DNA from: a virus
Direction: 5' to 3' (one strand)
Length of the DNA stretch: 36,776 nucleotides
IMG/VR virus record: IMGVR_UViG_3300009184_000094
Location: 1 to 36,776 of that record
Shown here: one piece after another, positions 225-25,701 of the stretch
Layout of the letters: each line of letters starts with the position of its first letter
How positions within the stretch are numbered: position 1 is the stretch's first letter
The notes under the pieces: model-generated
What the model was told of the DNA's origin: nothing
The model's database searches: none
The model's input: only the letters and a program-made list of their open reading frames with translations
Program-made: the position numbers and the translations under genes

Positions 225-941
225 ATGAAATTTGGTGAATTAAAATCTAAGATAGAAAAATGTTTGGCGGAATCTTATGCTAAAGACTCAGTTAAAAAAG
301 ATTTATTCGTGTTCAGTGAAATGGTCCTGAAAAATAAAAACGTGTCAAAACTATTTTACTTGTATGATGAATTATCATCAAAAAAAGGTTTAAATGAAGA
401 CGTTGCAAACGAATATATAAATCAATCTATCATTATTTACGAAAACACAATAAATAAAATCCCAACCAAAACTTTTTCTGAATTAAAAATGTGGATTGGT
501 CATATTAAAGCAGAAAATGATTACAAAAACATCGACAATCTATTTTCTAACGGACTTTTGACTTTGGAAGATAAAATTAAAAGTAAAAAACTTATTTCAG
601 AAAATTTACAAAAAAGTGTTATTGTGGAAAATAAAGAAACTATCAATGTACCTTTAAAATCTATGTTGAGTGTTGCAAACAAAAATGTGAAATCATTTTT
701 ATCGTCTTTAAATGAGTCCGAGAAAAAAGAGGTTATGAAGATTTTATCCACACCAAAATCAGAATTGATAGAATCTTATAATAAAATTAAAGAGGAAGTT
801 TTAGAGAAACTTGAAGATAAATTATCTGAAAGTGATCAAGAAACAAATCAAACCATAGACCAAGTAATAAATAAACTTACCACCGAATCTTTTAACGAAA
901 TCAACTACTTTAAATTGAAAAATCTTTCAGAAGGAATTTAA
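225..941 (+). CDS. Hypothetical helical protein upstream of the head-assembly block
   Basis: A 238-residue, Lys/Glu/Asn-rich protein with almost entirely helix-forming composition and no signal peptide, membrane segment or metal motif. The segment from about residue 155 to 205 (SFLSSLNESEKKEVMKIL onward) looks like a long amphipathic or coiled-coil helix. The start is an ATG after an A-tract, without a Shine-Dalgarno sequence, 14 nt after a TATTTAT-type element. Its 3' end overlaps the convergent bS21 gene by 4 nt. Its position before the protease, scaffold and capsid genes makes a head-related role possible, but no family was recognised and no function is claimed. Confidence 0.75.
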   Translation: MKFGELKSKIEKCLAESYAKDSVKKDLFVFSEMVLKNKNVSKLFYLYDELSSKKGLNEDVANEYINQSIIIYENTINKIPTKTFSELKMWIGHIKAENDYKNIDNLFSNGLLTLEDKIKSKKLISENLQKSVIVENKETINVPLKSMLSVANKNVKSFLSSLNESEKKEVMKILSTPKSELIESYNKIKEEVLEKLEDKLSESDQETNQTIDQVINKLTTESFNEINYFKLKNLSEGI

Positions 942-1123
942 TTATTGTTTCTGAGTTTTTGTACATAAGTTGCTTTTTGAATAGATCTTCTTCTTTTAAC
1001 AGAATCTTTTTCAAACTCTTTGTTTTCAAACAAAATTTTGTTTTGTTTAGTTTTAATAACCTTACTTTTTAAATCCTTTAACGATTTTTCAATATTACCT
1101 TTTTTTACTTCTACTATTAGCAT
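938..1123 (-). CDS. rpsU: Phage-encoded small-subunit ribosomal protein bS21
   Basis: A 61-residue basic protein that reads along its whole length like the short Bacteroidota form of bS21: an MLIVEVKKG beta-strand start, a helix with IEKSLKDLKSKVIKTK, then an FE(N/K)KEFEKDSVKRRR segment matching the typical REFYEKPS-x-KRR core, and a basic C-terminal helix. bS21 sits on the 30S platform near the 3' end of 16S rRNA. In Bacteroidota it helps sequester the anti-Shine-Dalgarno sequence, and phage copies are known in Bacteroidota-infecting phages. The gene is on the minus strand between plus-strand genes and overlaps the preceding gene end by 4 nt. Overlapping TATTTATA elements lie 19-25 nt upstream, so late expression is plausible. 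Assignment is by motif reading, not a database search. Confidence 0.85.
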   Translation of the reverse strand: MLIVEVKKGNIEKSLKDLKSKVIKTKQNKILFENKEFEKDSVKRRRSIQKATYVQKLRNNN

Positions 1124-1142
1124 AAATTTTTAACTTTGTTGA

Positions 1143-1156
1143 TATAAATATAAATA
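1143..1156 (-). promoter_or_regulatory. Candidate late promoter for bS21
   Basis: Read on the minus strand the segment is TATTTATATTTATA, two overlapping copies of TATTTATA, ending 19 nt before the bS21 start codon. The plus-strand gene at 1204 starts about 48 nt from the other side, so the element could also be read as TATAAATA toward that gene. Confidence 0.4.
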
Positions 1157-1203
1157 TTTCATATAATTAATCAAAATAAACGATAAGAGTATGATAAAAA
1201 TTT

Positions 1204-1671
1204 ATGAAAAAAGGTAAAACAAGTAAGATCAATGGGTTTAGAACATTAAAATCACAGTATGGGACCATTGATTCTCAAAATCTCAAATCAATTTACGTCA
1301 ACATTCAAACGTGGGTAGAACCTAAAGATGAGGTTGAAAATTGGGACAGAGTTGTTTTGAACATGACAAGATCAGTTAAACATTCTATATATGAGAATAT
1401 AGATAAAGAAATTTTTGACGACAAATTTATCGTCGATTTGGATTTAAGAACAAGTGGAATCCAATTAAAAAAGAAATCTTTTATGAATATAGAAACAAAT
1501 TTATATTTAAAACAACATATGGATTTTAAATCACCAAAATTAAAAAAAGTTGTAAAAAATCTCGTTAAAGATATATACGGTGATGTGTTAAATAAAAACA
1601 AATACTTCAAATTTTATTTAACTAAAAACGGAAATCAAAAACCCATAAAGAAAGAAACTGAAACTATTTAG
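1204..1671 (+). CDS. Hypothetical protein upstream of the prohead protease
   Basis: A 155-residue basic protein with a mixed alpha/beta composition. An N-terminal basic stretch (MKKGKTSKINGFRTLKSQYG) is followed by strand-like segments (SIYVNIQTWVEP, FIVDLDLRTSGIQLKKKSF), a Lys-rich helix (SPKLKKVVKNLVKDIYGDVL) and a basic tail. There is no signal peptide or membrane segment. It ends 21 nt before the protease gene, and the candidate promoter for that gene starts at its stop codon. The position suggests a head-morphogenesis or DNA-associated role, but no family was recognised. Confidence 0.75.
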   Translation: MKKGKTSKINGFRTLKSQYGTIDSQNLKSIYVNIQTWVEPKDEVENWDRVVLNMTRSVKHSIYENIDKEIFDDKFIVDLDLRTSGIQLKKKSFMNIETNLYLKQHMDFKSPKLKKVVKNLVKDIYGDVLNKNKYFKFYLTKNGNQKPIKKETETI

Positions 1672-1679
1672 TATTTATA
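1671..1679 (+). promoter_or_regulatory. Candidate late promoter before the prohead protease
   Basis: GTATTTATA ends 13 nt before the ATG at 1693 and begins at the last base of the previous stop codon. It is a perfect TATTTATA copy with an A-rich leader. Confidence 0.5.
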
Positions 1680-1692
1680 AAGAAAATATTAA

Positions 1693-2421
1693 ATGGACAA
1701 TTTAAAAATATTAGGACCAAGAGATTCAGGTCGTGGGATTCTTGTTGAGTATGATGCGGGTTATATCGATCCAAATGAACGAAGAAACTTATCTATGATA
1801 AGAGAAAATCGTAATATGTTAGATCATTCAAAACCTTTTGAGTTTTATGCCGTATTACAAAAATACGACACCCCAAATAGAAACGGAAGAATTTACCCTG
1901 AAAATATTTTAAAAAGAGAAGCCGAGAATTATAAAAAAATGATTCAAAAAGGAACCGCTCTTTCAGAATTAAACCACCCTGAGTCTTCTCTAATAGATTT
2001 AGATAGAGTTTCCCATATGATTACTGATATATGGTGGGAAGGTCCTGTATTGTTAGGTAAATTGAAATTACTAACAAGTCCTGGATTTCATGAAAGAGGT
2101 GTTGTTTCTACTAAAGGTGATTTAGCAGCAAACTATCTTCGTCAGGGAGTTACTTTAGGTATTTCTTCTCGTGGGGTTGGGTCATTAAAAAAAGTTGGTG
2201 AGCAAAACGAAGTTCAGGAAGATTTTGAATTAATTTGTTTTGACCTTGTATCTTCACCTTCTACACCGGGAGCTTATTTGTTTTTAGATAAAGATGATAG
2301 ATTACAATTTGAAGAAAACTTAGAAGAGGAAAATAAAAGAAAAGTTGAGTTAAATGTTGGTCCTACAGGAAATGCTTCTCTTGACTTAATGAAAAGATTA
2401 TCCGATTATTTGGATAAATAA
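1693..2421 (+). CDS. 21: Prohead core protease, T4 gp21-like
   Basis: A 242-residue serine protease of the T4 gp21 prohead maturation family. It digests the scaffold and trims the capsid protein after (I/L)-x-E. The N-terminal half contains YDTPNRNGRIYP at about 58-69, typical of the family. The likely catalytic His is in LSELNHPE (His95) and the likely catalytic Ser in LGISSRGVGS (Ser158/159). The conserved FDLVSSPSTPGA segment follows at about 183-194. The order of His then Ser agrees with T4 gp21. The next genes are the scaffold and capsid genes, the canonical order of this block. The start follows an A-rich leader and a perfect TATTTATA element. The Glu-rich tail after residue 205 may be removed during activation, which is inference. 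Confidence 0.93.
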   Translation: MDNLKILGPRDSGRGILVEYDAGYIDPNERRNLSMIRENRNMLDHSKPFEFYAVLQKYDTPNRNGRIYPENILKREAENYKKMIQKGTALSELNHPESSLIDLDRVSHMITDIWWEGPVLLGKLKLLTSPGFHERGVVSTKGDLAANYLRQGVTLGISSRGVGSLKKVGEQNEVQEDFELICFDLVSSPSTPGAYLFLDKDDRLQFEENLEEENKRKVELNVGPTGNASLDLMKRLSDYLDK

Positions 2422-2770: not shown

Positions 2771-4303
2771 ATGTCAAAAAACAAAAATGTAGTAGAGGAT
2801 GCTCTTTTCCAAATTAAAAATTTGGAGGAAGCCCTACAAGAAAATGCAAAAGGAATACTTCATTCTACAATGAAAGAAGAAATCAGACAATTAGTAAAAG
2901 AGTCTTTGAAAGAACAAGATGAGACTGAAGATGATGTCGAAGTTAGCGGTGATGAAGAAATTATGATGGGTGATGAAATACCATCAATTGATGATCAAGA
3001 TGACGAAGACGAAATAATGATGGATGATAAAATGCCAAACATGAATGACGAAATGCCAAACATGGATGATACCATCGATATGACCGACGCAAGCGATGAT
3101 GAGGTCTTAAGAGTTTTCAAAGCTATGAGTGATGAAGATGGAATAATCGTTAAAAAAGAAAATGGTATGTTAAATTTAAAAGACGGCGAAGACGAGTACA
3201 TGATCCAATTAGGAGAATCAGAAGAAGATTTCATGGGTATGTTTGATTCAGATGAAGATGATTCAGATGAAGATGATTCAGATGAAGATAATTTTTCATT
3301 CGAAATGGGTGAAGAATATTCTGAAGATGATTTCGAAGAAAAAGACGAAATTATTTTTGAATTAGAACTTGATGATAAACTTCCTATGGAAGAAGAAGAT
3401 ATGAATATGTTTTCTATAGAAGAAGAAGACGATGATGATATCGACTTAGGCCCAATGGAAGAAGAAGAAACTGATATGATGGGTTATGAAAAAATGTCAA
3501 TCGACGACGAAATCATGGAATCAATTAAAAAATCAATGAAACCAAAAGGTGTTGGGTTAGGGAAAGGTCCTAAATTCGGTTACGATAAAAAACCTAACAT
3601 GAATGGAGGTTTTAATACTAAAAGAAAAGAAGCGTTTGGTAAAGGAACAAAGGCTGTTGGTACAGGTAAGGCCAAATTCGAATACAAAGAAGGATTTGAT
3701 AAAGTAACTTTAGGTGGAAACAAAGGTGATAAATCAAAAACACATCCAGGTAAAAAAGATTACATGGATACAAAAATGATGATGAAACCTAAAAAAATGG
3801 AAACCAAAGAAGCGTCTCGTACTTACGGTAACGGATCTAAAGAAGGAAGAGGTTTAAGAAAAGGTATCACACCTAACAGAAACCTAACATTTGAATCCGT
3901 AGATAGGAGCGAATTAAAATTGTTAAGAGAAAAGAATAACGAATACAGACAAGCACTTGACGTATTTAGAACTAAACTAAATGAAACTGCGGTATTCAAC
4001 TCAAACTTAGCATACGCAACTCGTTTGTTCACTGAACATTCAACAACAAAACAAGAAAAAATCAATATCCTAAGAAGATTCGATTCTGTTGAGAGTTTGA
4101 AAGAATCTAAAGCGCTATATCAAACAATCAAAAATGAATTGGGATCAACAACAAAGGGTAGTGAATCAACAATTGTAGAATCAATTGAAAGAAATGTCGT
4201 TAAAACACCTTCAACAGGATCGGCAGTAAATTTAATTGAATCTAAAACGTATGAAAATCCTCAATTTATGAGAATGAAGGATTTGATGGCGAAAATAAAA
4301 TAA
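2771..4303 (+). CDS. 22: Prohead core scaffold protein, T4 gp22-like
   Basis: A 510-residue scaffold candidate placed directly between prohead protease and major capsid protein, as gene 22 is in T4. The N-terminal helix includes MKEEIRQLVKESLKEQ. A long Asp/Glu/Met-rich low-complexity region follows to about residue 250. A strongly basic Gly/Lys-rich section (about 255-370) comes next, then a helical C-terminal domain (about 375-510) ending MRMKDLMAKIK. T4 gp22 is much shorter (about 270 residues), so the acidic and basic low-complexity regions are extra. Many (I/L)-x-E tripeptides suit digestion by the protease. The ATG at 2771 is preferred to an in-frame TTG at 2759 because it follows an A-rich leader. 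It ends 29 nt before the capsid gene, with no promoter element between, so the two are probably cotranscribed. Confidence 0.85.
   Translation: MSKNKNVVEDALFQIKNLEEALQENAKGILHSTMKEEIRQLVKESLKEQDETEDDVEVSGDEEIMMGDEIPSIDDQDDEDEIMMDDKMPNMNDEMPNMDDTIDMTDASDDEVLRVFKAMSDEDGIIVKKENGMLNLKDGEDEYMIQLGESEEDFMGMFDSDEDDSDEDDSDEDNFSFEMGEEYSEDDFEEKDEIIFELELDDKLPMEEEDMNMFSIEEEDDDDIDLGPMEEEETDMMGYEKMSIDDEIMESIKKSMKPKGVGLGKGPKFGYDKKPNMNGGFNTKRKEAFGKGTKAVGTGKAKFEYKEGFDKVTLGGNKGDKSKTHPGKKDYMDTKMMMKPKKMETKEASRTYGNGSKEGRGLRKGITPNRNLTFESVDRSELKLLREKNNEYRQALDVFRTKLNETAVFNSNLAYATRLFTEHSTTKQEKINILRRFDSVESLKESKALYQTIKNELGSTTKGSESTIVESIERNVVKTPSTGSAVNLIESKTYENPQFMRMKDLMAKIK
3245..3289 (+). repeat. Three tandem 15-bp repeats in the scaffold gene
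   Basis: GATTCAGATGAAGAT is present three times without mismatch (3245-3259, 3260-3274, 3275-3289), coding for Asp-Ser-Asp-Glu-Asp units. It lies inside the acidic region and is in frame, so copy-number changes would only alter length. Confidence 0.95.
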
Positions 4304-4332: not shown

Positions 4333-6189
4333 ATGGGAGCATTATTAGAATCAGGTCTTGTTGGTAACATCGGTCTTAAGCACCTTAAAGTTATCAAAGA
4401 AGATACAATTAACAAATGGGACAGATTAGGGTTCCTTGAAGGTCTTAGAGGCCACCTAAAAGAAAACGTAGCTCAGTTATATGAAAACCAAGCTTCTTTC
4501 TTGATTAACGAAGCAACTGCTGATGGAGGTTCTAACGGAGCTTTCGAAACTGTTGTTTTCCCAATCGTAAGAAGAGTTTTCTCTAAATTGTTGGCTAACG
4601 ACATCGTTTCTGTACAAGCAATGAACTTACCTATCGGTAAATTGTTCTATTTTGTACCACGTATCCAAGGATACCAAGAAACAGCACCTACAACTCATTA
4701 TCCACCAATTGGATCTCCTGAGGCAGTGAACGGAAACATTAACGATCCTAACCAAGGATATCCTAACAACCCTAACGCTTACTCTAAAAACCTTTATGAC
4801 TTGTTCTACGAAGGAAATGAGGCGGCATTAGATCCTCCAGGATTATTTGATTACTCAAAAGGAAGATATACTGCTTGTACATCTAACACAACAGTTCAAA
4901 AATGGGTTGGTGATCAATTAGTAAACGCTAGTAATAATGATCCAGTTTATATTGGAAACCATAGAAAAGTTTTAATGAAACTTTGTGGATTTACAAACGT
5001 TGGAGCTGGAAAACTTATCGGTCCTGATGGTCAAGAAATGGATACAGAATCTTTCTTATCTGATTTGACAATTACTAAAGGTAATGGTTTAGGTTTAGAT
5101 GCTAGTACTCCATGTCCAGTTGGAACTGGTCCTCTATTATTTAGAGTTGTTACTCAAATCTACGGAAAAGGTATCGTACAATACGGAAACCAAAGAAAAA
5201 CTAACTTTAATTCATTTACAGGAGCTGCGGCGACTTTGAATGATTCAGGTAACGGAGGTTCTTTCTATGATATCTGTGATACAGAAGGATGTATCTATTT
5301 AGAAGTTGATTTATCTTGTCCAGCATGTCCTACATGTGGTGACGATAGTTTAGATGGTTACACAGGAACTACAATCACTGGAATTACATCAGGTACTTCA
5401 TTCAGCGCAACTTGGAGACGTTACGAAGAGTTAGAGTTTGAAGACAAAATTGGTGAGGTTTCTTTTGACCTTGAGTCAGTAACTGTATCTGTTACAGAAA
5501 GAAAACTAAGAGCACAATGGTCTCCTGAATTAGCTCAAGACGTTGCGGCGTTCCACAACATCGATGCTGAAGCTGAATTGACAGCATTGTTGTCAGAGCA
5601 AGTAGCTGCTGAGATCGACCGTGAAATTTTACGTGACTTACGTAAAGGTGCGGCTTGGAACTTACGTTGGGACTACAACGGATGGAGAAGAATTGGTGCT
5701 ACCACTTCTTACACTCAAAAAGACTGGAACCAAACTTTGATTACAGCAATCAACCAATTGTCAGCACAAATCCACAAATCTACTTTGAGAGGTGGTGCTA
5801 ACTGGATCGTTGTATCTTCTGAGGTTTCTGCCATCTTTGACGATTTAGAATACTTCCACGTATCTAACGCGGCTCCTGAGCAAGACCAATACAACATGGG
5901 TATTGAAAGAGTTGGTACATTAGCAGGTCGTTACCAAGTTTACCGTGATCCTTACTTCCCACCAAACCAAGTTTTGATCGGACACAAAGGAACTTCATTG
6001 TTAGACACAGGTTACATTTACGCACCGTATGTTCCTCTACAATTAACACCTACAATGTATAACCCATTCAACTTTACGCCAATCAAAGGTATTATGACCA
6101 GATACGCGAAAAAGATGGTAAATAATCGCTTTTATGGCCGCATTACCGTTGATGGTGTTAGAACATTCGATTTAAGAGAATTGAGATAA
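4333..6189 (+). CDS. 23: Major capsid protein, T4 gp23-like
   Basis: A 618-residue HK97-fold capsid protein. The family signature is VSVTERKLRAQWSPELAQD (about 385-403), followed by HNIDAEAELTALLSEQVAAE with its DAEAEL core and IDREILRDLR. The N-terminal propeptide of about 60 residues ends in SFLINE followed by ATADGGSNG, the expected position and sequence type of the gp21 cleavage (T4 cuts after Glu65 at a similar site). The C-terminus (RYAKKMVNNRFYGRITVDGV) is also family-like. Unusual features are a long insert around residues 130-260 and a Cys cluster, Cys315, 320, 329, 332 and 335 (CX4C-X8-CX2CX2C). By eye the gene uses more GC-ending codons (AAC, GGT, TAC) than its neighbours, as expected for the most abundant virion protein. 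A hairpin terminator follows. Confidence 0.97.
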   Translation: MGALLESGLVGNIGLKHLKVIKEDTINKWDRLGFLEGLRGHLKENVAQLYENQASFLINEATADGGSNGAFETVVFPIVRRVFSKLLANDIVSVQAMNLPIGKLFYFVPRIQGYQETAPTTHYPPIGSPEAVNGNINDPNQGYPNNPNAYSKNLYDLFYEGNEAALDPPGLFDYSKGRYTACTSNTTVQKWVGDQLVNASNNDPVYIGNHRKVLMKLCGFTNVGAGKLIGPDGQEMDTESFLSDLTITKGNGLGLDASTPCPVGTGPLLFRVVTQIYGKGIVQYGNQRKTNFNSFTGAAATLNDSGNGGSFYDICDTEGCIYLEVDLSCPACPTCGDDSLDGYTGTTITGITSGTSFSATWRRYEELEFEDKIGEVSFDLESVTVSVTERKLRAQWSPELAQDVAAFHNIDAEAELTALLSEQVAAEIDREILRDLRKGAAWNLRWDYNGWRRIGATTSYTQKDWNQTLITAINQLSAQIHKSTLRGGANWIVVSSEVSAIFDDLEYFHVSNAAPEQDQYNMGIERVGTLAGRYQVYRDPYFPPNQVLIGHKGTSLLDTGYIYAPYVPLQLTPTMYNPFNFTPIKGIMTRYAKKMVNNRFYGRITVDGVRTFDLRELR

Positions 6190-6295: not shown

Positions 6296-6976
6296 ATGAA
6301 AAAATATGTCCCATCAGAAGAAGAAATTAAAACTATCCTTAAGATGTATAATGAGGATTTAATTGGGAGTCAAACAATTTCGGAAAAAATAGGATTAAAT
6401 AAACAACAAGTGTTAAGAATACTTAAAGAAAATGGTGTTAAATTAGGTCCATCAGGTAGAAGAAATATTGGTGGTAAAAAAGTTGCGGATAAAAAATGGA
6501 GAGATTCTAATAAAGAATATTTATCTAATAAATCCAAAACTTGGTATGAAAATAACAAAGAACACAGAAAACAATATCTTAAAGAATACCGTGAAAAGAA
6601 TGTTGATAAGATTAAACAAATAAAACGTGATTACGAAAGAAATCGTAAAGCGAGAGACCCCCTCTATAAACTAATCAGTAATTTCAGAACCGCAATTTAT
6701 CAAGTATTAAAAGAAAATAACGTTAAAAAAAACGGACATTATTTTGATATTTTAAAATACACTCCCCAACAATTAATAGAACATTTAGAAAAACAATTTA
6801 GTGATGAAATGACTTGGGATAATTATGGTTTATGGCATGTCGATCACAAACACCCAATCTCATTATACAATATTAAAGAAATTGGTGATGATGAATTTTT
6901 AAAATGTTGGTCTTTAGATAATTTACAACCAATGTGGGGTTGTGAAAATATTAAAAAATCTAATAAATTATTTTAA
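6296..6976 (+). CDS. Free-standing HNH homing-type endonuclease
   Basis: A 226-residue protein. Residues about 6-45 (SEEEIKTILKMYNEDLIG, then KIGLNKQQVLRILKENGV) form a resolvase-like helix-turn-helix for DNA recognition. A long basic helical linker (about 60-120) follows. The C-terminus carries the HNH nuclease core: WHVDHKHPIS (180-189, with D183-H184) and WSLDNLQPMWGCENIKKSN (205-223, with Asn209 and Asn218 in the expected places). Enzymes of this type cut DNA at a target allele and spread by gene conversion. It sits directly after the capsid terminator and has its own start region. Its last 9 bases overlap the convergent small gene at 6968-7171. No intron is apparent in the capsid gene. 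Confidence 0.88.
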   Translation: MKKYVPSEEEIKTILKMYNEDLIGSQTISEKIGLNKQQVLRILKENGVKLGPSGRRNIGGKKVADKKWRDSNKEYLSNKSKTWYENNKEHRKQYLKEYREKNVDKIKQIKRDYERNRKARDPLYKLISNFRTAIYQVLKENNVKKNGHYFDILKYTPQQLIEHLEKQFSDEMTWDNYGLWHVDHKHPISLYNIKEIGDDEFLKCWSLDNLQPMWGCENIKKSNKLF

Positions 6977-15609: not shown

Positions 15610-15618
15610 TATAAATAT
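15610..15618 (-). promoter_or_regulatory. Candidate late promoter between the sigma gene and the tail block
   Basis: Minus strand ATATTTATA, a perfect copy, begins at the last base of the sigma gene and ends 4 nt before the ATG at 15605. The very short spacing means the transcript may be leaderless. It would give the tail genes 15605 to 11539 their own late start. Confidence 0.4.
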
Positions 15619-16364
15619 TATTTTTTTAATATTTCTTGAACTAAGTCAAAATATATTTTTTTATACTTTTTCAAAGAAGTTCTTATTTCTTTTGTTGATA
15701 GGTTGGTCATTTCTCTTATCTCAAATAAAATAATATTTTTGTTAAATTTGTTATTATTTGAATCTGGAAAAATTGTACCGTAATTTTCAAAAATGTCATA
15801 AATCGCAGAACCTAATTTATATTCCTGATCAGATATTATTTCAGATTCTAACGACAACCTCAATCTTTCTAAGAATTTTTTAATTATATATTCCGAACTT
15901 ATACTATCGTCATCAATATAATAACACATATTCATATTGTTTGACAGATCACTTGAGATGTCTTCGTATGATATCTTACGATTCATTTCTTTTTGGTCTT
16001 TCATAATTTGACCCATCAAATAATTTTTACATATGGTACCAAAATAAGAATATGCCTTCTTTTCTTTAGAAGGTTTAAATTTCTCAATTTTAGTCATTAG
16101 AAAAGAATGAGTATCATTATGTATTTCCTCATAATTCATATCTTTCCTGTACAATTTATACCTTCTAATTATTGAAGATATCATTTTATCTAAAGGTTCT
16201 CTCAGAAACTCATTATAAATTTTATTTTTTTCATAATGAGTTTCTGCGACTAAAAAATTTCTAACAGCTTCTTCTTCTCTTTCGGCGAAGTAATTTGTTG
16301 TGCTAGGTTTTCTACCTTTCTTTTTCTTTTCTTCTATCTCGTTAATTTCATTTACTACTATCAA
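15618..16364 (-). CDS. 55: Late-transcription sigma factor, T4 gp55-like
   Basis: A 248-residue sigma-70-type protein. Residues about 25-130 match region 2 of gp55-like factors: EREEEAVRNFLVAETHYEKN, then LDKMISSIIRRYKLY, then FKPSKEKKAYSYFGTICKNY and LMGQIMKDQKEMNRK, where AYSYFGTICKNYLMGQI corresponds to the core-binding and -10 recognition helices. The C-terminus (about 212-240, FEIREMTNLSTKEIRTSLKK) looks like a helix-turn-helix, which T4 gp55 (185 residues) lacks. It probably directs host RNA polymerase to the TATTTATA elements of virion genes, an inference. The start overlaps the end of the upstream glycosyltransferase as ATGA. It has a basic N-terminus (KKKKGRKPS). Confidence 0.8.
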   Translation of the reverse strand: MIVVNEINEIEEKKKKGRKPSTTNYFAEREEEAVRNFLVAETHYEKNKIYNEFLREPLDKMISSIIRRYKLYRKDMNYEEIHNDTHSFLMTKIEKFKPSKEKKAYSYFGTICKNYLMGQIMKDQKEMNRKISYEDISSDLSNNMNMCYYIDDDSISSEYIIKKFLERLRLSLESEIISDQEYKLGSAIYDIFENYGTIFPDSNNNKFNKNIILFEIREMTNLSTKEIRTSLKKYKKIYFDLVQEILKK

Positions 16365-17167
16365 ACTTCTTGATGTTCATAATTTATTTTTCTTTCTATA
16401 TTATAAAAATATTCTTTTTTTGCCGAGTCGATCCAAAATTTAACTTCATCGGCACTTAATCTATCATCACTATTTTTGTAATTCCAAAATAAAGAACCTA
16501 ATCTAAGATTCATATGTTTGTAACCAATTTTAGGTATTGTCATAATTCTTGATGAATTATGTGTTAATCTTAAAAAGAATTCATAACCAAAAGTTAATTT
16601 AATATTTGATTTTAAACCACCAATATTCAAAAACTTTTCTTTATTTATAATCATACCTGAAATTTGAAAATTTTGAAAATTTTGTAAAATTTCATTGGAC
16701 AAAATTCCTATCTCGTTTGTTATGTTTGCTGCGAATGTTGCCTCGTTTGTAAATCCTGCAAATACCGCTTTATCATCAACATCCACTACAATAGGTAAAA
16801 ATGCATCAACATCTTTATAAATATCCATATATTTTTTTGAAACTCTAAACCAAATTTTAGAGTACTCATCATCGAACTCTAACAAAGAAACCCAATTTGA
16901 TGATGAAACTTCAACACCTCTATTTATTTGGTTGGCATAATTTGGTTCTTCAGTCCATTTTTCAAATTTAACATTAATACCGTCAAAATCGTAATTTGTT
17001 AAATAATTCTCAAGTTGTAGTTCATCACAATGAACAATAACTAATTCATCAAATTCATCTTTTTGGTTTTTTAATGATTGAATGCTTTTATCAAAAAAAG
17101 ATTCAAAATCATAAGCGGTTCTTGTTTTTAAAGGTAATACTACCGAAATTGTATTTTTATTTTCCAT
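16361..17167 (-). CDS. Family 2-type glycosyltransferase
   Basis: A 268-residue GT-A fold enzyme. The N-terminus (TISVVLPLKTRTAYDFESFF) is the nucleotide-binding strand-loop. LLEFDDE at 95-101 takes the place of the DxD metal-binding motif. GGLKSNIKLTFGYEFFLRL is the usual second-half acceptor region with the E-F-F motif. The protein lacks a membrane anchor. It overlaps the sigma gene by 4 nt (ATGA) and follows the GT-B gene by 6 nt. The sugar and acceptor cannot be read from the sequence. Confidence 0.82.
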   Translation of the reverse strand: MENKNTISVVLPLKTRTAYDFESFFDKSIQSLKNQKDEFDELVIVHCDELQLENYLTNYDFDGINVKFEKWTEEPNYANQINRGVEVSSSNWVSLLEFDDEYSKIWFRVSKKYMDIYKDVDAFLPIVVDVDDKAVFAGFTNEATFAANITNEIGILSNEILQNFQNFQISGMIINKEKFLNIGGLKSNIKLTFGYEFFLRLTHNSSRIMTIPKIGYKHMNLRLGSLFWNYKNSDDRLSADEVKFWIDSAKKEYFYNIERKINYEHQEV

Positions 17168-17173
17168 AATAAT

Positions 17174-18232
17174 TTATTCTATAGTTTGTAGTTTATTTAA
17201 TTGATTTTCAAATCCTTCCATTCTTGTTGAAATTAACCTATCAAAAAGTTCTACAACATCGGATTCAAATTTTTCTTTAGATGGTAATGAATCAATAGTT
17301 TTTTTCATATTTTCATATAATGCTGGATTGATGTTGTCTTCTAACCAATTTTGAATAAAATCGGAAATAACATCAGTAACTATTGTTTTGTTATTAATCC
17401 AAACACCATTATCTTCATTCATCCATGTCGGTACAATATCAGGTACTAAACCAATAACAGGTATGTTCATTTTCATAGATTCCAAAGGAAAAGTTCCATA
17501 TGAACTATATTGGTCAATCCAAACTGAAACAAAACTATCTTTCATTGCTTCTGCGAATTCTTGTTCTGACAAACCTCTTAAATCTCTGAATGTGAACCAT
17601 CTATATTGTGGAAACTTAGCATAGAAAGATTTAATAAGATTTACTGTATCTCTATGATCTCTTGTATGTACGTTAATGATTGTTTTTGGTGGAAAAGGGT
17701 TCATAACAAAAGTATCTGAAATGTATGGTTCTACAACATCAAAAGAAACATTTCTCATTTGTGTTTCTAAATATTCTTTTTGTTTTTCAGATGTTGTTAT
17801 ACATTTTAAAAATCCTAATGAATTCCACGTTTGACCTGGCTGTAATGTCTCAAAGATGTAATCATATGATTGTGAAAGTACAATTTTACCACATGGTAAT
17901 TTTGTAATTTGATCCATAACGAATCCGTAAATTTCGGGAATAATAATTAAATCTTCTGGTGAGATCTCTAAGTTTGTACCCTCAATTGCTTTGTGACTTA
18001 AAGTCATATATTCTTCACCTAACCAACTTGACACTCCGTAGTAATCAGGTTTTTCGTGAAGCATTATTGAGTTGTACCCATTATTTTTTAAAGACAACGC
18101 CATTTGGTAAATATATCTTACCGAAGCTTTTGCATTTCCTTTCGTGTCTTGTACCAAGAAATATATTCTTGATTTTTTCTCCCTCATGTTGGAGATTGCG
18201 TTTTCTAATTTAGAAATTTGTTCGTTAGTCAT
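17174..18232 (-). CDS. GT-B fold glycosyltransferase
   Basis: A 352-residue protein with two Rossmann halves. The N-terminal half has RIYFLVQDTKGNAKASVRYI and LIIIPEIYGFVMDQI; the C-terminal half has SYGTFPLESMKMNIPVIGLV, in the position of the donor-binding glutamate motif of GT4-like enzymes. There are no membrane segments. It sits 6 nt upstream of the GT2 gene in the same run. A role in glycosylating virion proteins, DNA or host surface is possible, but donor and target are unknown. Confidence 0.8.
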   Translation of the reverse strand: MTNEQISKLENAISNMREKKSRIYFLVQDTKGNAKASVRYIYQMALSLKNNGYNSIMLHEKPDYYGVSSWLGEEYMTLSHKAIEGTNLEISPEDLIIIPEIYGFVMDQITKLPCGKIVLSQSYDYIFETLQPGQTWNSLGFLKCITTSEKQKEYLETQMRNVSFDVVEPYISDTFVMNPFPPKTIINVHTRDHRDTVNLIKSFYAKFPQYRWFTFRDLRGLSEQEFAEAMKDSFVSVWIDQYSSYGTFPLESMKMNIPVIGLVPDIVPTWMNEDNGVWINNKTIVTDVISDFIQNWLEDNINPALYENMKKTIDSLPSKEKFESDVVELFDRLISTRMEGFENQLNKLQTIE

Positions 18233-18238
18233 AACTTT

Positions 18239-18493
18239 TTAGAATTTATTTATTATTTTATTAACAAGTAATGTGTTAAATGATAGTTTAAAAGGTATTG
18301 TTAATTCGCTATTATTAGGTCCCAACTTTTCATCCACTTCTTCTACTTCGGATAAAATTGTTTCTAACATCATTTTTACAACTTCATATTTAACAATGTG
18401 AATTTGAGTTTCACCTGACGGGTTTTCAATTTGTAATTGTTTATCTAAAACATCTAAATCAATGTAATAGTTTTCATTTAAAATTTTAATCAT
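18239..18493 (-). CDS. Small hypothetical protein
   Basis: An 84-residue protein: strands MIKILNENYYIDLDVLD and QIHIVKYEVV, a helix KMMLETILSEVEEVDEKLG, and a beta-like C-terminus LTIPFKLSFNTLLVNKII. It is packed between the HAD-like gene (2-nt gap) and the GT-B gene (6-nt gap), which supports coding. No family was recognised. Confidence 0.7.
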   Translation of the reverse strand: MIKILNENYYIDLDVLDKQLQIENPSGETQIHIVKYEVVKMMLETILSEVEEVDEKLGPNNSELTIPFKLSFNTLLVNKIINKF

Positions 18494-18495
18494 TT

Positions 18496-19143
18496 TTAAA
18501 GTTTTTCTATCAATTTTTTAAACTCAGATAGATTTGATATTTCATATTCTGAATTTATGTGTTTATTGTAGTTAGTATTGTATTTTACAACAATCTTCCC
18601 ATCTAACTTATTTAATAATAAAGAAGGATCTGCGGTAAGTAAAACATCTATTTCATTCCACATGTCATTTTTTGTGATTTCACTGTAAAATATGATTTTT
18701 TCGATTAAACAACCAAACTTTGAAAGAAAAAATAGGGATGCTGGTTTAGATTTACCAATCTCATTTGATACGATTAAAAAATTGTACTTGTCTCTAAACT
18801 CGACATACAAATCATTTAAAGTGTTAAATGAATTTATTTCTGTTGATGGAGAATGTCCAAATAACTCCATGGTATATTCTTCATACATGAAACTAAAAAG
18901 TTCATCTTTATTTTTAAATGAAAAGTGTTTATCAAGTTCTAAACTAGTCACATCGGACAGAATTTCATATACAAAATTATCTTCTTCAAGATCAATTGAT
19001 TCAGTGTTTCCTGACAAATCAACATTGTATGTTTGAACTGAAAAAGTATTATTTTCTGACTCAATCAAATACTTTTCGTAGATTTGTGTAAATTTTGTGA
19101 TATTGTCTCTTAAGACTCCATTTAAATCAATTGCTATCCTCAT
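18496..19143 (-). CDS. HAD-like hydrolase-related protein with altered motif I
   Basis: A 215-residue protein beginning MRIAIDLNGVLRDN, the HAD motif I position. The nucleophile Asp6 is present, but the second acid of D-x-D is Asn8. A strand with YNFLIVSNEIGKSKP follows, resembling motif II (Ser) and the motif III Lys. Later LLTADPSLLLN may be motif IV with one Asp. A large cap-like insertion with Asp/Glu/Phe lies between. HAD enzymes act on phosphate esters, often nucleotides. Here activity is uncertain because of Asn8. The ATG at 19143 is preferred to one codon earlier (19146) as the second of two adjacent Met codons; either fits. It overlaps the phoH gene end. Confidence 0.7.
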   Translation of the reverse strand: MRIAIDLNGVLRDNITKFTQIYEKYLIESENNTFSVQTYNVDLSGNTESIDLEEDNFVYEILSDVTSLELDKHFSFKNKDELFSFMYEEYTMELFGHSPSTEINSFNTLNDLYVEFRDKYNFLIVSNEIGKSKPASLFFLSKFGCLIEKIIFYSEITKNDMWNEIDVLLTADPSLLLNKLDGKIVVKYNTNYNKHINSEYEISNLSEFKKLIEKL

Positions 19144-19855
19144 CATATTTTTTTAATATTTTAGTAATTATAGGATTTCTAACACCGTCTTTTTCGCCAA
19201 ATTCAAAAACTCCAATTCCTGGAATTCCGTTGAACCTTAGTATCGCATCATAAAGTCCTGAGTGTTTTTTGTCTTTATATCTATCGGTTTGCTCAATATC
19301 TCCCGATATAAAAAACTTACTATTGGCTCCAATTCTTGTCAATAATAATTTCATTTGTTTTGGTGTTGCGTTTTGAGCTTCTTCGAAGATTAAAATTGCA
19401 TTGTCTATTGTCATACCTCTCATGTATGCCAAAGCAAATACTTCTATAATATCAGCCTCTTTTAATTTTTCTCTCGAATCTTTTCCAATTATTTTATTCA
19501 AAAGATAATAAGATGGAAAAATGTACGGGTCTAATTTTTCTTCTAAATTTCCCGGTAATGCTCCTAATTTTTCTTCGGCCTCTACGGCTGGTCTTACAAT
19601 TATTATTTTATCATATCCGTTACCACCCTCCAATAATAGATCCACCGCAGTTTTCATTGCTATGAAACTTTTACCAACTCCCGCAGGACCAGAACAAATT
19701 GTTATTTGATTGTTCAAAAGTGTTTCATAATAAATTTTTTGATTTTCAGTTAAAAATTTACTTTTTGATTTTTTTTTAACTACTTGTTCGATTATGTCTC
19801 TTTTGGAATTTAGAAGAACTTCATTATCTTCTGTTTGTTGTGTTTTTTTTCTCAT
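19127..19855 (-). CDS. phoH: PhoH family ATPase
   Basis: A 242-residue protein of the PhoH family, a RecA-like ATPase widespread in marine phages and of unsettled role (phosphate stress or RNA metabolism). Walker A is GPAGVGKS (56-63), Walker B is ILIFEEAQN (154-162), and the family stretches IIIVRPAVEAEEKLGALPG (85-102), AYMRGMTIDNA and ISGDIEQTD are present. Length is normal for phage PhoH. It lies between a glycosyltransferase (3-nt gap) and the HAD-like gene (overlap). Confidence 0.95.
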   Translation of the reverse strand: MRKKTQQTEDNEVLLNSKRDIIEQVVKKKSKSKFLTENQKIYYETLLNNQITICSGPAGVGKSFIAMKTAVDLLLEGGNGYDKIIIVRPAVEAEEKLGALPGNLEEKLDPYIFPSYYLLNKIIGKDSREKLKEADIIEVFALAYMRGMTIDNAILIFEEAQNATPKQMKLLLTRIGANSKFFISGDIEQTDRYKDKKHSGLYDAILRFNGIPGIGVFEFGEKDGVRNPIITKILKKYDEDSN

Positions 19856-19858
19856 TTA

Positions 19859-20581
19859 CTATGAATAAAAGTTTATGGTTTTTGAAAATCCTTCCTCTTC
19901 ATGATAACAGGTTAATTTGTCTATAAAAATTCCTGTTTGACTATTAGAGGTTAGAAATTCTTTAGTTCTTTCCCACAAGTCCGCATCTGCAGGTAACCCA
20001 ACTTTACCTGTTTCTAAATATAAATCCCTGTATCGTAATGGGATTTCTTTAAAATTCATACAAACTGAAGAGTGTATTAAAGAACTGCTTGATGGTAAAA
20101 ATTCATTATATTTCTTTTTAGTTAGTATATTTGGTAAATAATTATTTGGGGATAAACGAGTTGATTTAGTACAAATCCAATTACTATTAGTTTCATTAAT
20201 GCATTTTGATATTTCGTCTAAATGGTCATTAGACCACCAATCATCATGATCTAAATGACAAATATATTCGTAACCCTCATTTAGAGCCATTTCTATACCA
20301 ATGTTAGTTGCATTTACACCACCATATAGCCAAATTGCTCTTGGGATAAGATAATTATCCCTTTCTTTTGCCTCTAATAAATTTGTAAAAAATATTTTTT
20401 TACCGTCATATTTTTTTAAAATCTCTAAAACTTCGATTTCGTTTTCATATTTATCACCCATTAAAAAAATTTTAAAATTTTGGTAAGTTTGGTTGAAAAC
20501 GGAATCTAAGGCTCTCGTTAAATATTTTGATGTATTACCATCTTTTCTGTGATAAGTTGGTATAACTATGGCTATTTTCAT
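19859..20581 (-). CDS. Family 2 glycosyltransferase
   Basis: A 240-residue GT-A enzyme with the classic start MKIAIVIPTYHRKDGNTSKY, a substrate-loop region LYGGVNATNIGIEMAL, and the metal-binding motif HLDHDDWW (109-116; D-x-D-D). GLPADADLWERTKEF is the usual acceptor-loop segment with the ED-like motif replaced by D-A-D. There is no membrane segment. It is followed at 3 nt by phoH. AGTATTTAACC lies about 20 nt upstream, a poor match to the late element. Confidence 0.87.
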   Translation of the reverse strand: MKIAIVIPTYHRKDGNTSKYLTRALDSVFNQTYQNFKIFLMGDKYENEIEVLEILKKYDGKKIFFTNLLEAKERDNYLIPRAIWLYGGVNATNIGIEMALNEGYEYICHLDHDDWWSNDHLDEISKCINETNSNWICTKSTRLSPNNYLPNILTKKKYNEFLPSSSSLIHSSVCMNFKEIPLRYRDLYLETGKVGLPADADLWERTKEFLTSNSQTGIFIDKLTCYHEEEGFSKTINFYS

Positions 20582-20611
20582 TTTGTTTTTTTAAGGTTAA
20601 ATACTAATAAT

Positions 20612-21382
20612 TTAATTCAATAACATTTGGTAGTTCTTAGGAAGATATACGTTATTTTCAGGTTCTATTAGTGTATAGGTTATGTTTTTATTTTCTCTTT
20701 TAAATAAATCTTTTCCTGATTCTATAACTGAAAGAATGTGATTATCATTTAAAAATTCATCTCTATTGTATTCTTGGTGTGAAAAATTTTTAATTTTATT
20801 TTTGATAAAATCAACATCACCAAAATATGAAAAATGCCAACCACCTTTTTCAATGATTGTTCCGTCTTTTATTCTAATGTGTTGAGGTAAATTTGTTTTA
20901 GAATAATGTCTAAAATTACATATTTTTGCCCAATGCCACCTACCATTAAATTTACATTTAATATTATAGTAGTACATATCTTGACCTAAATTGTGAGGAC
21001 CGTCTATCAAACCTTTATTTTTAATCTCACTCAACGTATCAACATCTGGTATTTCATCAACATCACTAACAATGATTATATCTTCTTCATCCAAGTTTAA
21101 TTTTGAAATACCTAAATGAATTGAGTTTCTTTGGTTATATTCATTATTCCAAGCGTTTGTATCATTAAGGTCATCTACAACAATATGAATAATTTTATGA
21201 AGATATTCTTTAAAATTTTCTTTATTTTGTTCGAAAAACAATTCTTTATCGTTTCCTGTAAATGTTTTGGTTGATTCAACAAGTACAAAAAAATCTACAA
21301 CATCATTTAATTCTTTTAACCTAAACTCTAACATTTTCATTTCATTATAAAAAATGAAACAATCTATTATTTTTCTATCCAT
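20612..21382 (-). CDS. GT17-type glycosyltransferase (N-acetylglucosaminyltransferase-like)
   Basis: A 256-residue protein that reads as GT17 (the family of eukaryotic MGAT3). The start IIDCFIFYNEMKMLEFRLKE, VVDFFVLVESTKTFTG, the motif AWNNEYNQRNSI, and SDVDEIP (106-112) as metal-binding D-x-D are all family hallmarks, as is KGGWHFSYFGDVDFIKNKI near the end. The donor is probably UDP-GlcNAc by family, but the acceptor is unknown. It starts 6 nt after the methyltransferase gene and ends 30 nt before the next gene. Confidence 0.88.
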   Translation of the reverse strand: MDRKIIDCFIFYNEMKMLEFRLKELNDVVDFFVLVESTKTFTGNDKELFFEQNKENFKEYLHKIIHIVVDDLNDTNAWNNEYNQRNSIHLGISKLNLDEEDIIIVSDVDEIPDVDTLSEIKNKGLIDGPHNLGQDMYYYNIKCKFNGRWHWAKICNFRHYSKTNLPQHIRIKDGTIIEKGGWHFSYFGDVDFIKNKIKNFSHQEYNRDEFLNDNHILSVIESGKDLFKRENKNITYTLIEPENNVYLPKNYQMLLN

Positions 21383-21388
21383 ATTTTT

Positions 21389-21964
21389 TTATTTTTTAAT
21401 AATTGATGTGACGCTATCAGTATAATCATTTTTATTTTTTGTAAAAATTTCCACATCTTTAAATTCTTTTTTAATTGATTCTAAATTATTTACTAGTTTT
21501 TTATTAGTTAAAAAATCATATGTTGTAGTTTCACTATTAACATATTCTGGTCTGAATGATGTGTGTAAATCCTCAACCACATAAAATCCGTTGTTTTTTA
21601 ATTTTGGCCATAACAACTCTAAAGATTTTTGCTGATGAGAAGTTAAATGACTTCCATCATCAATAATTATGGTAAAAAAATCATCGTCGAATAATTTTGA
21701 TAAACTCGGATCGTCCTGTGAAATTTTATTATAAACAAATCTTTCGTGTTTAAACTTGACATCAATTATGTCTAAACAATAAATTTTTGCATTTTCAAAA
21801 TACTCTAACCACGTAAATACTGAAGATCCATTTAAAAAACCAATTTCAAGAATGTTAATTTTTTCAAATCTAAGATCTTTAAACTTTTGATCGTAAAATT
21901 CCATAAAATTATGGTGCGTTGATTTATCAGTACCATTTTTTAATCCTATTTCTTGTAGTGTCAT
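21389..21964 (-). CDS. Class I SAM-dependent methyltransferase
   Basis: A 191-residue Rossmann methyltransferase. GTDKSTHHNFMEFYDQKF is a conserved substrate loop of the sugar-methyltransferase-like group. SAM-binding motif I is NILEIGFLNGSSVFTW (38-52), the acidic ribose-binding residue lies in YCLDII, and DDGSH (102-106) is the metal/substrate motif seen in MycE-like sugar O-methyltransferases. It is next to GT17 (6-nt gap), so it may methylate the sugar added by the neighbouring enzymes. There is a 64-nt gap upstream, with no strong promoter seen. Confidence 0.8.
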   Translation of the reverse strand: MTLQEIGLKNGTDKSTHHNFMEFYDQKFKDLRFEKINILEIGFLNGSSVFTWLEYFENAKIYCLDIIDVKFKHERFVYNKISQDDPSLSKLFDDDFFTIIIDDGSHLTSHQQKSLELLWPKLKNNGFYVVEDLHTSFRPEYVNSETTTYDFLTNKKLVNNLESIKKEFKDVEIFTKNKNDYTDSVTSIIKK

Positions 21965-22028
21965 ATTATTTTTTGTTATTCCATTTATTTGTAAAGTTCC
22001 TCATCAAACCATCGGTCATTTTATAATT

Positions 22029-22709
22029 TTATACAATATTCCATTTTTTTATCATCTCATGAATTAACCCATCAGTCATTTCATGTTTTTTTTCATTCTC
22101 AATAAAATGATGACTTTTACTAAGAAGGTGTGTCACTTTAGAGTCGGTTATAAGTGCGTGTTTTATTCTATGTTTGATCAAAGTCATAGCATAGTCATTA
22201 TCTTGATACCAAAATTTAAATTTCTCATCAAATCCCCCTATTTGGTCAATTACACTTCTTTTAACTAAGATTGACCATCCCGTGATTTCGTAAGATGTTC
22301 TAAATCCATAATAAATTTTAATGTTTCTATTAAATTCGTTATGTCTAAACCAAGTATCATCAATCGGGCTCATTGATAAAAGATCTTTATCAAATTCGTT
22401 TGCTTCAATCATTTTGTCAAGAAAGTTTTCGTGGTATATTGTATCATTGTTTGAAATTAATATCCATTCATTTTTACAAAATTCTAAACCAATATTTAAA
22501 AATCGATTATAATTAAATTCTTCATCAGGTTGAATTACCAAGACATTAGTTTGAGGATAATCAAACTTTCTATCTTTGTTTGTCTCAACTAAAATTATAT
22601 TAAATTTGTGTTCGGTTGTACTATTATTAATACTATCAATACAATCGTTATTCATTTTAAAAATTGAGTCGTCTTTCACATAACTCAATATTATAACATC
22701 TATTTCCAT
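22029..22709 (-). CDS. Family 2 glycosyltransferase
   Basis: A 226-residue GT-A protein: EIDVIILSYVKDDSIFKMN, then ILVETNKDRKFD, FNYNRFLNIGLEF and ILISNNDT (84-90; N-N-D as metal site), then GGFDEKFKFWYQDNDYAMTL with the D-N-D acceptor element. The start is coupled to the end of the previous gene as TAATG (1-nt overlap). It belongs to the rhamnosyl-like GT2 type; donor and acceptor are unknown. Confidence 0.85.
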   Translation of the reverse strand: MEIDVIILSYVKDDSIFKMNNDCIDSINNSTTEHKFNIILVETNKDRKFDYPQTNVLVIQPDEEFNYNRFLNIGLEFCKNEWILISNNDTIYHENFLDKMIEANEFDKDLLSMSPIDDTWFRHNEFNRNIKIYYGFRTSYEITGWSILVKRSVIDQIGGFDEKFKFWYQDNDYAMTLIKHRIKHALITDSKVTHLLSKSHHFIENEKKHEMTDGLIHEMIKKWNIV

Positions 22710-24232
22710 TATCTAATACTATAAAGATAGTTTATTGTTTTGTAAACGACATCAACATTAAACAAAGGAGTTTCAGTTGGTGTTACACCATGTTTTTGTT
22801 TATAATGTTCTGTACCCTTTATAAAATTTTCATTCCACTCAGGAGTTCTTGCGATTGTACTTTCCGCAATCGAATTTGGTATGTCTGTTAAATACTCCCA
22901 ACTTTTTTCGATATCTGCAAAATACCAAAATGGAGGGTGAAAATTATTTTTTATTGTTTGAAAAGTATGCTCAACGTGTTCCCATGCGTTTTTAAACATA
23001 GGATCAAATAACCCAATTTTCTCCAAAACTGATCTATGATAATAAGAAAATGCCCCCACACAATTTGGATACAGAGGAATTTTAATTCCTTCAGGGTATG
23101 GTATAATTATTCTTGGATTTGGTTCTCCATCAACATCTTTTCTATCCTCCAAATTTTTAAACCCTGTCGATCCTGTTTTATTTGCTGGTCCGTGCAGACC
23201 GAAATTTAAATGTTTGATTCCTGATATTACCGATTGTCTAATGTATTGTTCAAAAACTTTTTCGTCTTTTATTAAAATATCATCTTCCATAAGAAATATA
23301 TGTTCGCACCCTTGGTCTAACAAGTATTGTAATGCCGAATTTTTTGCTGCTCCGACACACATATTTGTCTCGTGTTGTATTAAATGTGCTTGTTCAGGGT
23401 AAGAAGAATTATCATATGGTGTCCCATCATTTACAATGACAAAATGTTTCATCCATTTGGGAACCGTAAATGCACTTTGTTTTATTCTATGTTCGGCCTT
23501 ATAAGTTGTCATACCAATACCGACCTTATCAATATCAAAAAACATTTTTTCTTCCAATGTTCTATTATTTGAGAGTCTTACCGGTAAATTAGATTTATAT
23601 TTTTCTTCAAATTGTTTTTTATTTTCCTCCCATTGTTCGTTTGTCATACCTATTGATTTATGGGTTACACGAATCAAAGTTGTTACCGCTAATTTCACAC
23701 CATTAATATGGTTTTCAAAACAAAATGGGATTTCATAAAAGTGAAACCCTTTAAAATTCTCATCAAAAGAATTTTTGATTTTATTTTTATCAACAGCAAA
23801 GAATAATCCATCCAAGACAACAACTTCTTTTAGTTTATTTCCTTGATCTTGTGAGTATGTATTAGTCCATTTTTTACCTTCGTGTTTATGAGATACGATA
23901 CCCGTCATAGATTCTTTCATAGACCACCAACGACCATCGATAAGATCCGTAGTTCCTGCAATCCCAATTATACCAAATTCAGGGTTTTTAGAAAATAATT
24001 TTACTAATTTTTCACCCCAATTTTTTGTATCAAATTCAATGTCATCGTGACAAAAAACAACAATATTATTTTTTGATTCATTTAAAATTTCATTATAAAT
24101 TTGAGCTAATCCTTTTTCTCCATTATTAACTTTTTCAATTACTTCATAATGTTTGTTACCCCCACAACTTTTTTTTATGTATTCCGCTAGTTGAGGGTTA
24201 TGACTTCTTGTTGAGTATCCGATTGTTATCAT
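22709..24232 (-). CDS. Two-domain glycosyltransferase
   Basis: A 507-residue protein with two GT-A-like domains. Domain 1 (about 1-215): ITIGYSTRSHNPQLAEYIK, IVVFCHDDIEFDTKNWG (metal motif HDD at 62-64), FGIIGIAGTTD, then EVVVLDGLFFAVD. Domain 2 (about 230-490): VGIGMTTYKAEHRIKQSAFT, IVNDGTPYDN, CVGAAKNSALQYLLDQG and IFLMEDDILIKDE (EDD at 316-318), then GLFDPMFKNAWEHVEHTFQT. Both halves keep acidic metal motifs, so both may be active. Domain 1 resembles single-domain glycosyltransferases of marine phages. Its first 35 nt overlap the end of the 24198-24380 gene, and its stop is coupled to the next gene. Confidence 0.85.
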   Translation of the reverse strand: MITIGYSTRSHNPQLAEYIKKSCGGNKHYEVIEKVNNGEKGLAQIYNEILNESKNNIVVFCHDDIEFDTKNWGEKLVKLFSKNPEFGIIGIAGTTDLIDGRWWSMKESMTGIVSHKHEGKKWTNTYSQDQGNKLKEVVVLDGLFFAVDKNKIKNSFDENFKGFHFYEIPFCFENHINGVKLAVTTLIRVTHKSIGMTNEQWEENKKQFEEKYKSNLPVRLSNNRTLEEKMFFDIDKVGIGMTTYKAEHRIKQSAFTVPKWMKHFVIVNDGTPYDNSSYPEQAHLIQHETNMCVGAAKNSALQYLLDQGCEHIFLMEDDILIKDEKVFEQYIRQSVISGIKHLNFGLHGPANKTGSTGFKNLEDRKDVDGEPNPRIIIPYPEGIKIPLYPNCVGAFSYYHRSVLEKIGLFDPMFKNAWEHVEHTFQTIKNNFHPPFWYFADIEKSWEYLTDIPNSIAESTIARTPEWNENFIKGTEHYKQKHGVTPTETPLFNVDVVYKTINYLYSIR

Positions 24233-24380
24233 TCTCGTTTTCTATTTCTTTTAATATTTTTTCTAAAATTTCTTTTTTTTCTATCATGTATCGATTCCAC
24301 CACCCATCGTTATAAGACGACATAATCAATTCTTGATTTACAGAATCCAATTCATTTATTATTTTTTCTTTTGTTTTCAT
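24198..24380 (-). CDS. Small hypothetical helical protein
   Basis: A 60-residue charged protein (KEKIINELDSVNQELIMSS, then WWNRYMIEKKEILEKIL), probably two helices. It overlaps the stop of the dUTPase gene by 4 nt (ATGA) and the start of the two-domain glycosyltransferase by 35 nt. The ATGA coupling and typical codon use favour a real gene, although it is short. No family was recognised. Confidence 0.5.
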   Translation of the reverse strand: MKTKEKIINELDSVNQELIMSSYNDGWWNRYMIEKKEILEKILKEIENENDNNRILNKKS

Positions 24381-25698: not shown

Positions 25699-25701
25699 TT
25701 C

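Follow-up and report, generated by a model that had tools for sequence, protein, structure and literature searches.

We analysed a 36.8-kb IMG/VR fragment (the window, 36,776 nucleotides) that carries a T4-like head block. Its source is probably a T4-like myovirus of Bacteroidota, and probably a jumbo phage. The initial annotation had placed a bS21 gene on the opposite strand inside the head block, and this arrangement is indeed what we find: bS21 is antisense to the two genes on either side of it, 225 and 1204 (named by their first positions), near a gp21-like protease and a gp23-like capsid gene (Table 1). The gene in the scaffold position matched no family in Pfam or PHROGs, and no terminase was identified within the window. 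Between genes 2429 and 2771 (positions 2641-2710), a stem is followed by a T run. Stem and T run recur in relatives with varied sequence (e.g., GTGGTC...GACCAC TTTTTTT), and we read them as a probable terminator separating the protease unit from the scaffold-capsid unit.

Table 1. Features of the head block and a distant regulatory gene in the window.
Feature	Position	Strand	Remarks
Head-block gene, function not assigned	225..941	+	Converges on bS21; 4-nt overlap with the bS21 stop
Phage bS21 (rpsU-like), 61 aa	938..1123	-	ATG start; PF01165, phmmer, Y53 alignment
Divergent promoter-like TTGATA-N17-TATAAT	1139..1167	+	11/12 consensus; toward gene 1204
Proximal TATTTATA	1143..1150	-	Ends 19 nt before the bS21 ATG; retained in relatives as TATATTTATATCAAC
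Distal TATTTATA, overlaps proximal copy	1149..1156	-	Some close relatives only
AAAATAAAC block in gene 1204 leader	1173..1181	+	AATAAAC kept in nearly all relatives, all clades
155-aa gene (1204), function not assigned	1204..1671	+	Divergent from bS21; constant neighbour
TATTTATA of prohead protease	1672..1679	+	TATTTAT upstream of protease in 112/112 distinct relatives
gp21-like prohead protease	1693..2421	+	PF03420 E = 9.3e-22; phrog_207 E = 1.6e-42
Probable scaffold (gp22 position)	2771..4303	+	Position only, between protease and capsid genes
gp23-like major capsid protein	4333..6189	+	PF07068 E = 2.6e-73
Probable gp55-like late sigma factor	15618..16364	-	phrog_234 via homologues

We searched the small antisense gene against families and structures. 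PF01165 (Ribosomal_S21) matched residues 4-54 with E = 4.5e-8 and 33.1 bits, above the curated cut-off of 27, which settles its identity as bS21; a PHROGs search gave no match. By phmmer the nearest solved chains were 9i5v (9i5v_9, E = 1.9e-7, 47% identity) and that of Flavobacterium johnsoniae, 7jil (7jil_z, E = 3.3e-6, about 44%). In the alignment, Y53 falls on F. johnsoniae Y54, which there stacks on A1534 of the anti-Shine-Dalgarno (ASD); with this aromatic residue in place, the proposed Bacteroidota type is upheld as well. The Y54 position is Tyr, His or Phe in 117/117 distinct relatives: a pattern read 105 Y, 8 H, and 3 F, and the remaining Y was read by eye where the pattern had failed.

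The phage bS21s have a stretch of their own, LKxKVIxTKQN, where two aligned cellular bS21s carry KRKFxKTG. All of them are at most 54% identical to six cellular proteins (four Bacteroidales rpsU products and two PDB chains), a level that argues against capture from these sampled lineages but not from other hosts. A search of named phages returned five uncultured records only, at 44-54% identity, and a scan of genomes for bS21 returned a single locus. Contig CAJXLN010000028.1 (locus L146), binned in a MAG labelled "uncultured Thermotogae", encodes a bS21 that shares 60% identity with the phage protein; this is likely a phage contig mis-binned into the MAG.

We wondered how stable the antisense arrangement is. 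Scanning with the bS21 protein gave 64 relatives, and scans with the protease and gene 1204 added loci (best 80 matches each). Antisense bS21 between two conserved head-block genes was found in about 200 relatives, and all bS21-scan relatives whose contig extends far enough keep the gene order 225-bS21-1204. Among the best matches listed, bS21 was present in 139/139 loci that carry gene 1204 and leave 600 nt or more of room; since the protease and 1204 scans covered the best 80 matches each, phages without bS21 may exist further out. Outgroup phages without bS21 have been described by Chen et al. (PMC9723584).

Gene 1204 is perhaps the "bS21_CN" of Chen et al. Its product gave a confident predicted model (pLDDT 88) that had no PDB match at E <= 0.001 and matched a single viral model, A0A8S5L9A5, itself of unknown function. 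A profile match to DsbA chains (E = 0.002) covered only part of the fold, and we do not believe it. The gene presumably occupies the place where T4 has its small prohead core genes.

The two overlapping TATTTATA copies upstream of bS21 had been said to match a motif of the virion genes, and the protease gene does share it. The window contains 17 copies of TATTTATA versus 7.5 expected, a number reached in 0/100 shuffles. Sense copies lie within 45 nt upstream of 9 of the 44 window genes (0.6 in shuffles), a distance that is approximate because gene calling was mechanical and took the longest ORF, started at its first ATG; for the reverse complement the enrichment there is slight (2 versus 0.9). 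The same sense enrichment was seen in a 272-kb relative (53/321 genes versus 5.4 in shuffles) and a 182-kb relative (29/192 versus 2.8). The upstream count exceeded that of every shuffle in five of six genomes, the exception being G005. We conclude that TATTTATA, enriched about tenfold, is in these phages a genuine upstream signal with a fixed orientation. We rejected TATAAATA in the T4 orientation as the late motif: sense TATAAATA is only weakly enriched, and sense TATTTATA is the enriched form.

Which genes carry the signal? In the window they include the protease gene, gene 7206, and the large putative tail/fibre gene 29719. In the 272-kb relative, the motif-bearing families (top 25 listed) include portal, tail sheath, tail tube, head maturation/prohead protease, tail fibres, tape measure, and the gp25 wedge. 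The families of genes lacking the motif (top 25 listed, longer proteins only) include DNA polymerase, primase, helicases, ribonucleotide reductase, thymidylate synthase, gp32, and RNA ligase. The motif/virion split is not clean: the capsid and terminase genes fall in the set lacking the motif. The capsid gene may be served by a site before the scaffold gene.

An HNH endonuclease-like ORF directly after the capsid gene (6296-6976, plus strand) has TATTTATA 3 nt before its ATG. Gene 29719 (29719-33519, plus strand), with TATTTATA in front, encodes a 1266-aa protein with long Thr-Pro repeats near the C-terminus, possibly a tail, fibre or adhesin protein. Several glycosyltransferase-like ORFs, PhoH, and a probable dUTPase form a cluster on the minus strand (16361-26916) with no TATTTATA in front.

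We then compared the region upstream of bS21 across relatives. TATTTATA occurs within 70 nt upstream of the gene in 51 of 117 distinct loci; the protease tally in Table 1 covers all loci readable there. A quick tree built from the protease and gene 1204, with 104 rows, places TATTTATA at bS21 in 45 of the 49 rows of the window's clade and also in L053 and L061/L063, a distribution that needs four changes. The two other clades lack it at bS21: in its place stand TATATATC in the sister clade and, for the most part, TATTTGTA or TATTTCTA in the far clade, each one base off the late motif. Four sister-clade rows carry TATATATCAA, and a GTCAAA label there came from a loose pattern. Given these one-base variants, a late promoter at bS21 is not universal; putative late control of the gene has support in the window's clade.

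The same intergenic region faces gene 1204 with a promoter-like sequence of its own. A TTGATA or TTGACA box stands at exactly 17 nt in all three clades, paired with TACAAT, TATAAT, TAAATT, TATTTT, and similar hexamers. Its scores are not extreme against shuffles, where 9-10 is common, and support for this candidate promoter comes from the constant box and spacing, not from the score. The TCAA flank of the bS21 motif belongs to the -35 box of this conserved divergent promoter. We had considered TATATCAA (window and sister clades) and GTCAAA (far clade) as bS21-specific elements and rejected both, because they are the reverse complement of the TTGATA/TTGACA -35 box, exactly 17 nt before the -10-like TAnnnT facing gene 1204. 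Because the box and the proximal TATTTATA share 2 bp, the bS21 and 1204 promoters may exclude each other. The primary sigma factor of Bacteroidota is thought to read a consensus other than TTGATA-17-TATAAT, and the host-type promoter consensus of the group is TTG-N-TAnnTTTG. Host-type sites (TTG-N17-23-TAnnTTTG) are enriched in these phages (13 versus 3.4 and 15 versus 1.6), in keeping with a Bacteroidota host.

A possible reader of TATTTATA is encoded in the window. The product of 15618-16364 has many close homologues, and 17/17 of those scanned reached phrog_234 ("late sigma transcription factor") at E <= 10, with a best value of 2.4e-4; the window copy alone gave a weak match (E = 0.062). 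Pfam and single-sequence PHROGs searches missed this likeness to gp55, and a profile search of the PDB found no relative. The gene is present in phages of both bS21-promoter groups first seen. It probably encodes a gp55-like late sigma, and we infer that this sigma is the likely reader of TATTTATA. The 272-kb relative additionally has Sigma70 regions 2 and 4 (PF04542, PF04545; phrog_351) among the genes of its set lacking the motif. These possibly represent a second phage sigma, which could read the TTGAYA-17-TAnnnT sites.

The leader of the phage gene was compared with those of cellular rpsU. F. johnsoniae rpsU is autoregulated through an extended Shine-Dalgarno (SD) sequence, and SD pairing below -13 kcal/mol occurs in rpsU of about 80% of Flavobacteriales, nearly all Sphingobacteriales, half of Chitinophagales, and no Bacteroidales (PMC9976891). 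For the leader of the window bS21 the pairing energy is -0.9 kcal/mol, outside the range below -13 of autoregulated rpsU, on a scale (simple duplex fold, assumed 16S tail) that differs from that of the published values. No strong SD was found in 92 distinct phage bS21 leaders, the strongest reaching -6.8 kcal/mol. Four Bacteroidales rpsU leaders examined likewise have no strong SD, so phage and host differ in this respect only if the host comes from one of the orders with a strong SD. The leaders of the window are SD-less in general, 1 of 42 lying at or below -7 kcal/mol. In the host system, ribosomes without bS21 initiate more slowly on SD-less mRNAs (PMC9976891).

What the sequences show is the identity of bS21, its conserved residues and gene order, the motif enrichment with its virion-gene association, and the lack of an SD; late timing, sigma-motif pairing, incorporation into ribosomes, and a benefit to the phage are inferred. 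We propose that bS21 is transcribed late from TATTTATA, alongside the virion genes, with the probable gp55-like sigma as reader. Its product would then replace host bS21 in host 30S subunits. With the ASD-hiding residue retained, these ribosomes would stay SD-blind and competent for SD-less phage messages. Since its own leader lacks a strong SD, bS21 synthesis would not be damped once ribosomes are replete, unlike that of rpsU in many Flavobacteriales and related orders. We give this combined reading a probability of roughly two in three. The late expression that the initial annotation had proposed thus stands in part: the motif, gene order, and metatranscriptomes of related phages speak for it, and a probable gp55-like sigma is present, but at bS21 the motif in its exact form is confined to the window's clade and a few others. 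The accompanying statement that other phages express S21 late agrees with related phages, in which bS21 is expressed with structural genes (PMC9723584).

We favour a late, unregulated supply of bS21 as the function; such a supply would maintain ribosomes suited to phage messages while damping host rpsU. A more far-reaching form of this idea is tentative, and we hold it to be clearly the less probable one: bS21 would be a late, SD-independent substitute uncoupled from the host autoregulatory loop, keeping ribosomes replete and SD-blind for late phage mRNAs while host rpsU is damped, and small alterations in a common bidirectional promoter region would have rewired its timing from clade to clade.

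Other explanations bear on what the protein does and on how it is transcribed. Chen et al. proposed that phage bS21 alters message choice, its divergent N-terminal helix favouring phage over host mRNAs, and the initial annotation had likewise suggested that a phage copy could retune which messages are selected. The mRNA-facing helix is indeed divergent (PMC9723584), and the contrast between LKxKVIxTKQN and KRKFxKTG noted above is of this kind. However, the aromatic residue that hides the ASD is retained and phage genes are SD-less like host genes, which leaves no obvious sequence handle separating the two sets of mRNAs. It is more parsimonious that phage bS21 maintains SD-blind ribosomes rather than changing them, and we regard altered message choice as unlikely.

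About equally improbable, in our view, is a reading without a late promoter at bS21, in which the divergent promoter of gene 1204 constrains an AT-rich region and TATTTATA arises there as a by-product. The adjoining TATCAA is the reverse complement of the conserved -35 TTGATA and is kept even where TATTTATA is lost, as this idea would have it; yet TATTTATA lies mostly in the spacer of the divergent promoter, where there is no evident reason for conservation, and it persists through most of the window's clade (the 45/49 tree rows) and recurs at another spacing in L061 and L063. Early or constitutive transcription of bS21 by the host RNA polymerase seems to us less probable still. Host-type sites are enriched in these phages, as described above, and in the far clade GATATTTG, or a sequence close to it, stands directly in front of the bS21 ATG, but we saw no host-type site in front of the window bS21, and metatranscriptomes of related phages tie bS21 to the structural genes (PMC9723584). 

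These results touch on the question of why bS21 is the ribosomal protein that phages most often carry. They offer a candidate late promoter motif that can be tested, together with the sigma that probably reads it, and phage copies without the SD needed for host autoregulation. A general idea of ribosome hijacking is thereby turned into specific predictions on timing, on dose, and on the choice of messages, for a group whose ribosomes are SD-blind.

How does the locus compare with known systems? In 2022, Chen et al. described 47 genomes of Bacteroidetes phages whose head block includes a reverse-strand bS21, expressed together with structural genes and with a conserved aromatic residue at position 54 (PMC9723584). 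The bS21 phages, the antisense position, Bacteroidota hosts, and late expression having been published there, the window bS21 belongs to a known kind. Like their clades a-e, it is antisense, flanked by two hypothetical families, and close to a prohead protease and capsid gene; the aromatic at position 54 and PhoH are also shared. The words promoter and sigma are absent from Chen et al. 2022 (PMC9723584). What is new here is the TATTTATA signal, its likely reader, the divergent promoter, and the absence from phage bS21 of the SD for host-type self-regulation.

With F. johnsoniae rpsU/bS21 (7jil; PMC9976891), the phage gene shares a short bS21 with the ASD-stacking tyrosine, but identity is limited and the autoregulatory extended SD of the host gene is missing. 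The regulatory side recalls the T4 late system, in which late promoters with TATAAATA are read by gp55 (PMC1524935): a short A+T octamer lies near virion genes, and a probable gp55-like sigma gene is present. As in T4, the motif stands before virion rather than replication genes in the 272-kb relative, capsid and terminase excepted. The two systems differ in that the enriched motif is TATTTATA and not the TATAAATA that T4 has at -13 to -6, and in that the sigma is only distantly similar. In phage Aeh1, divergence of gp55 is accompanied by divergence of the late promoters (PMC1524935).
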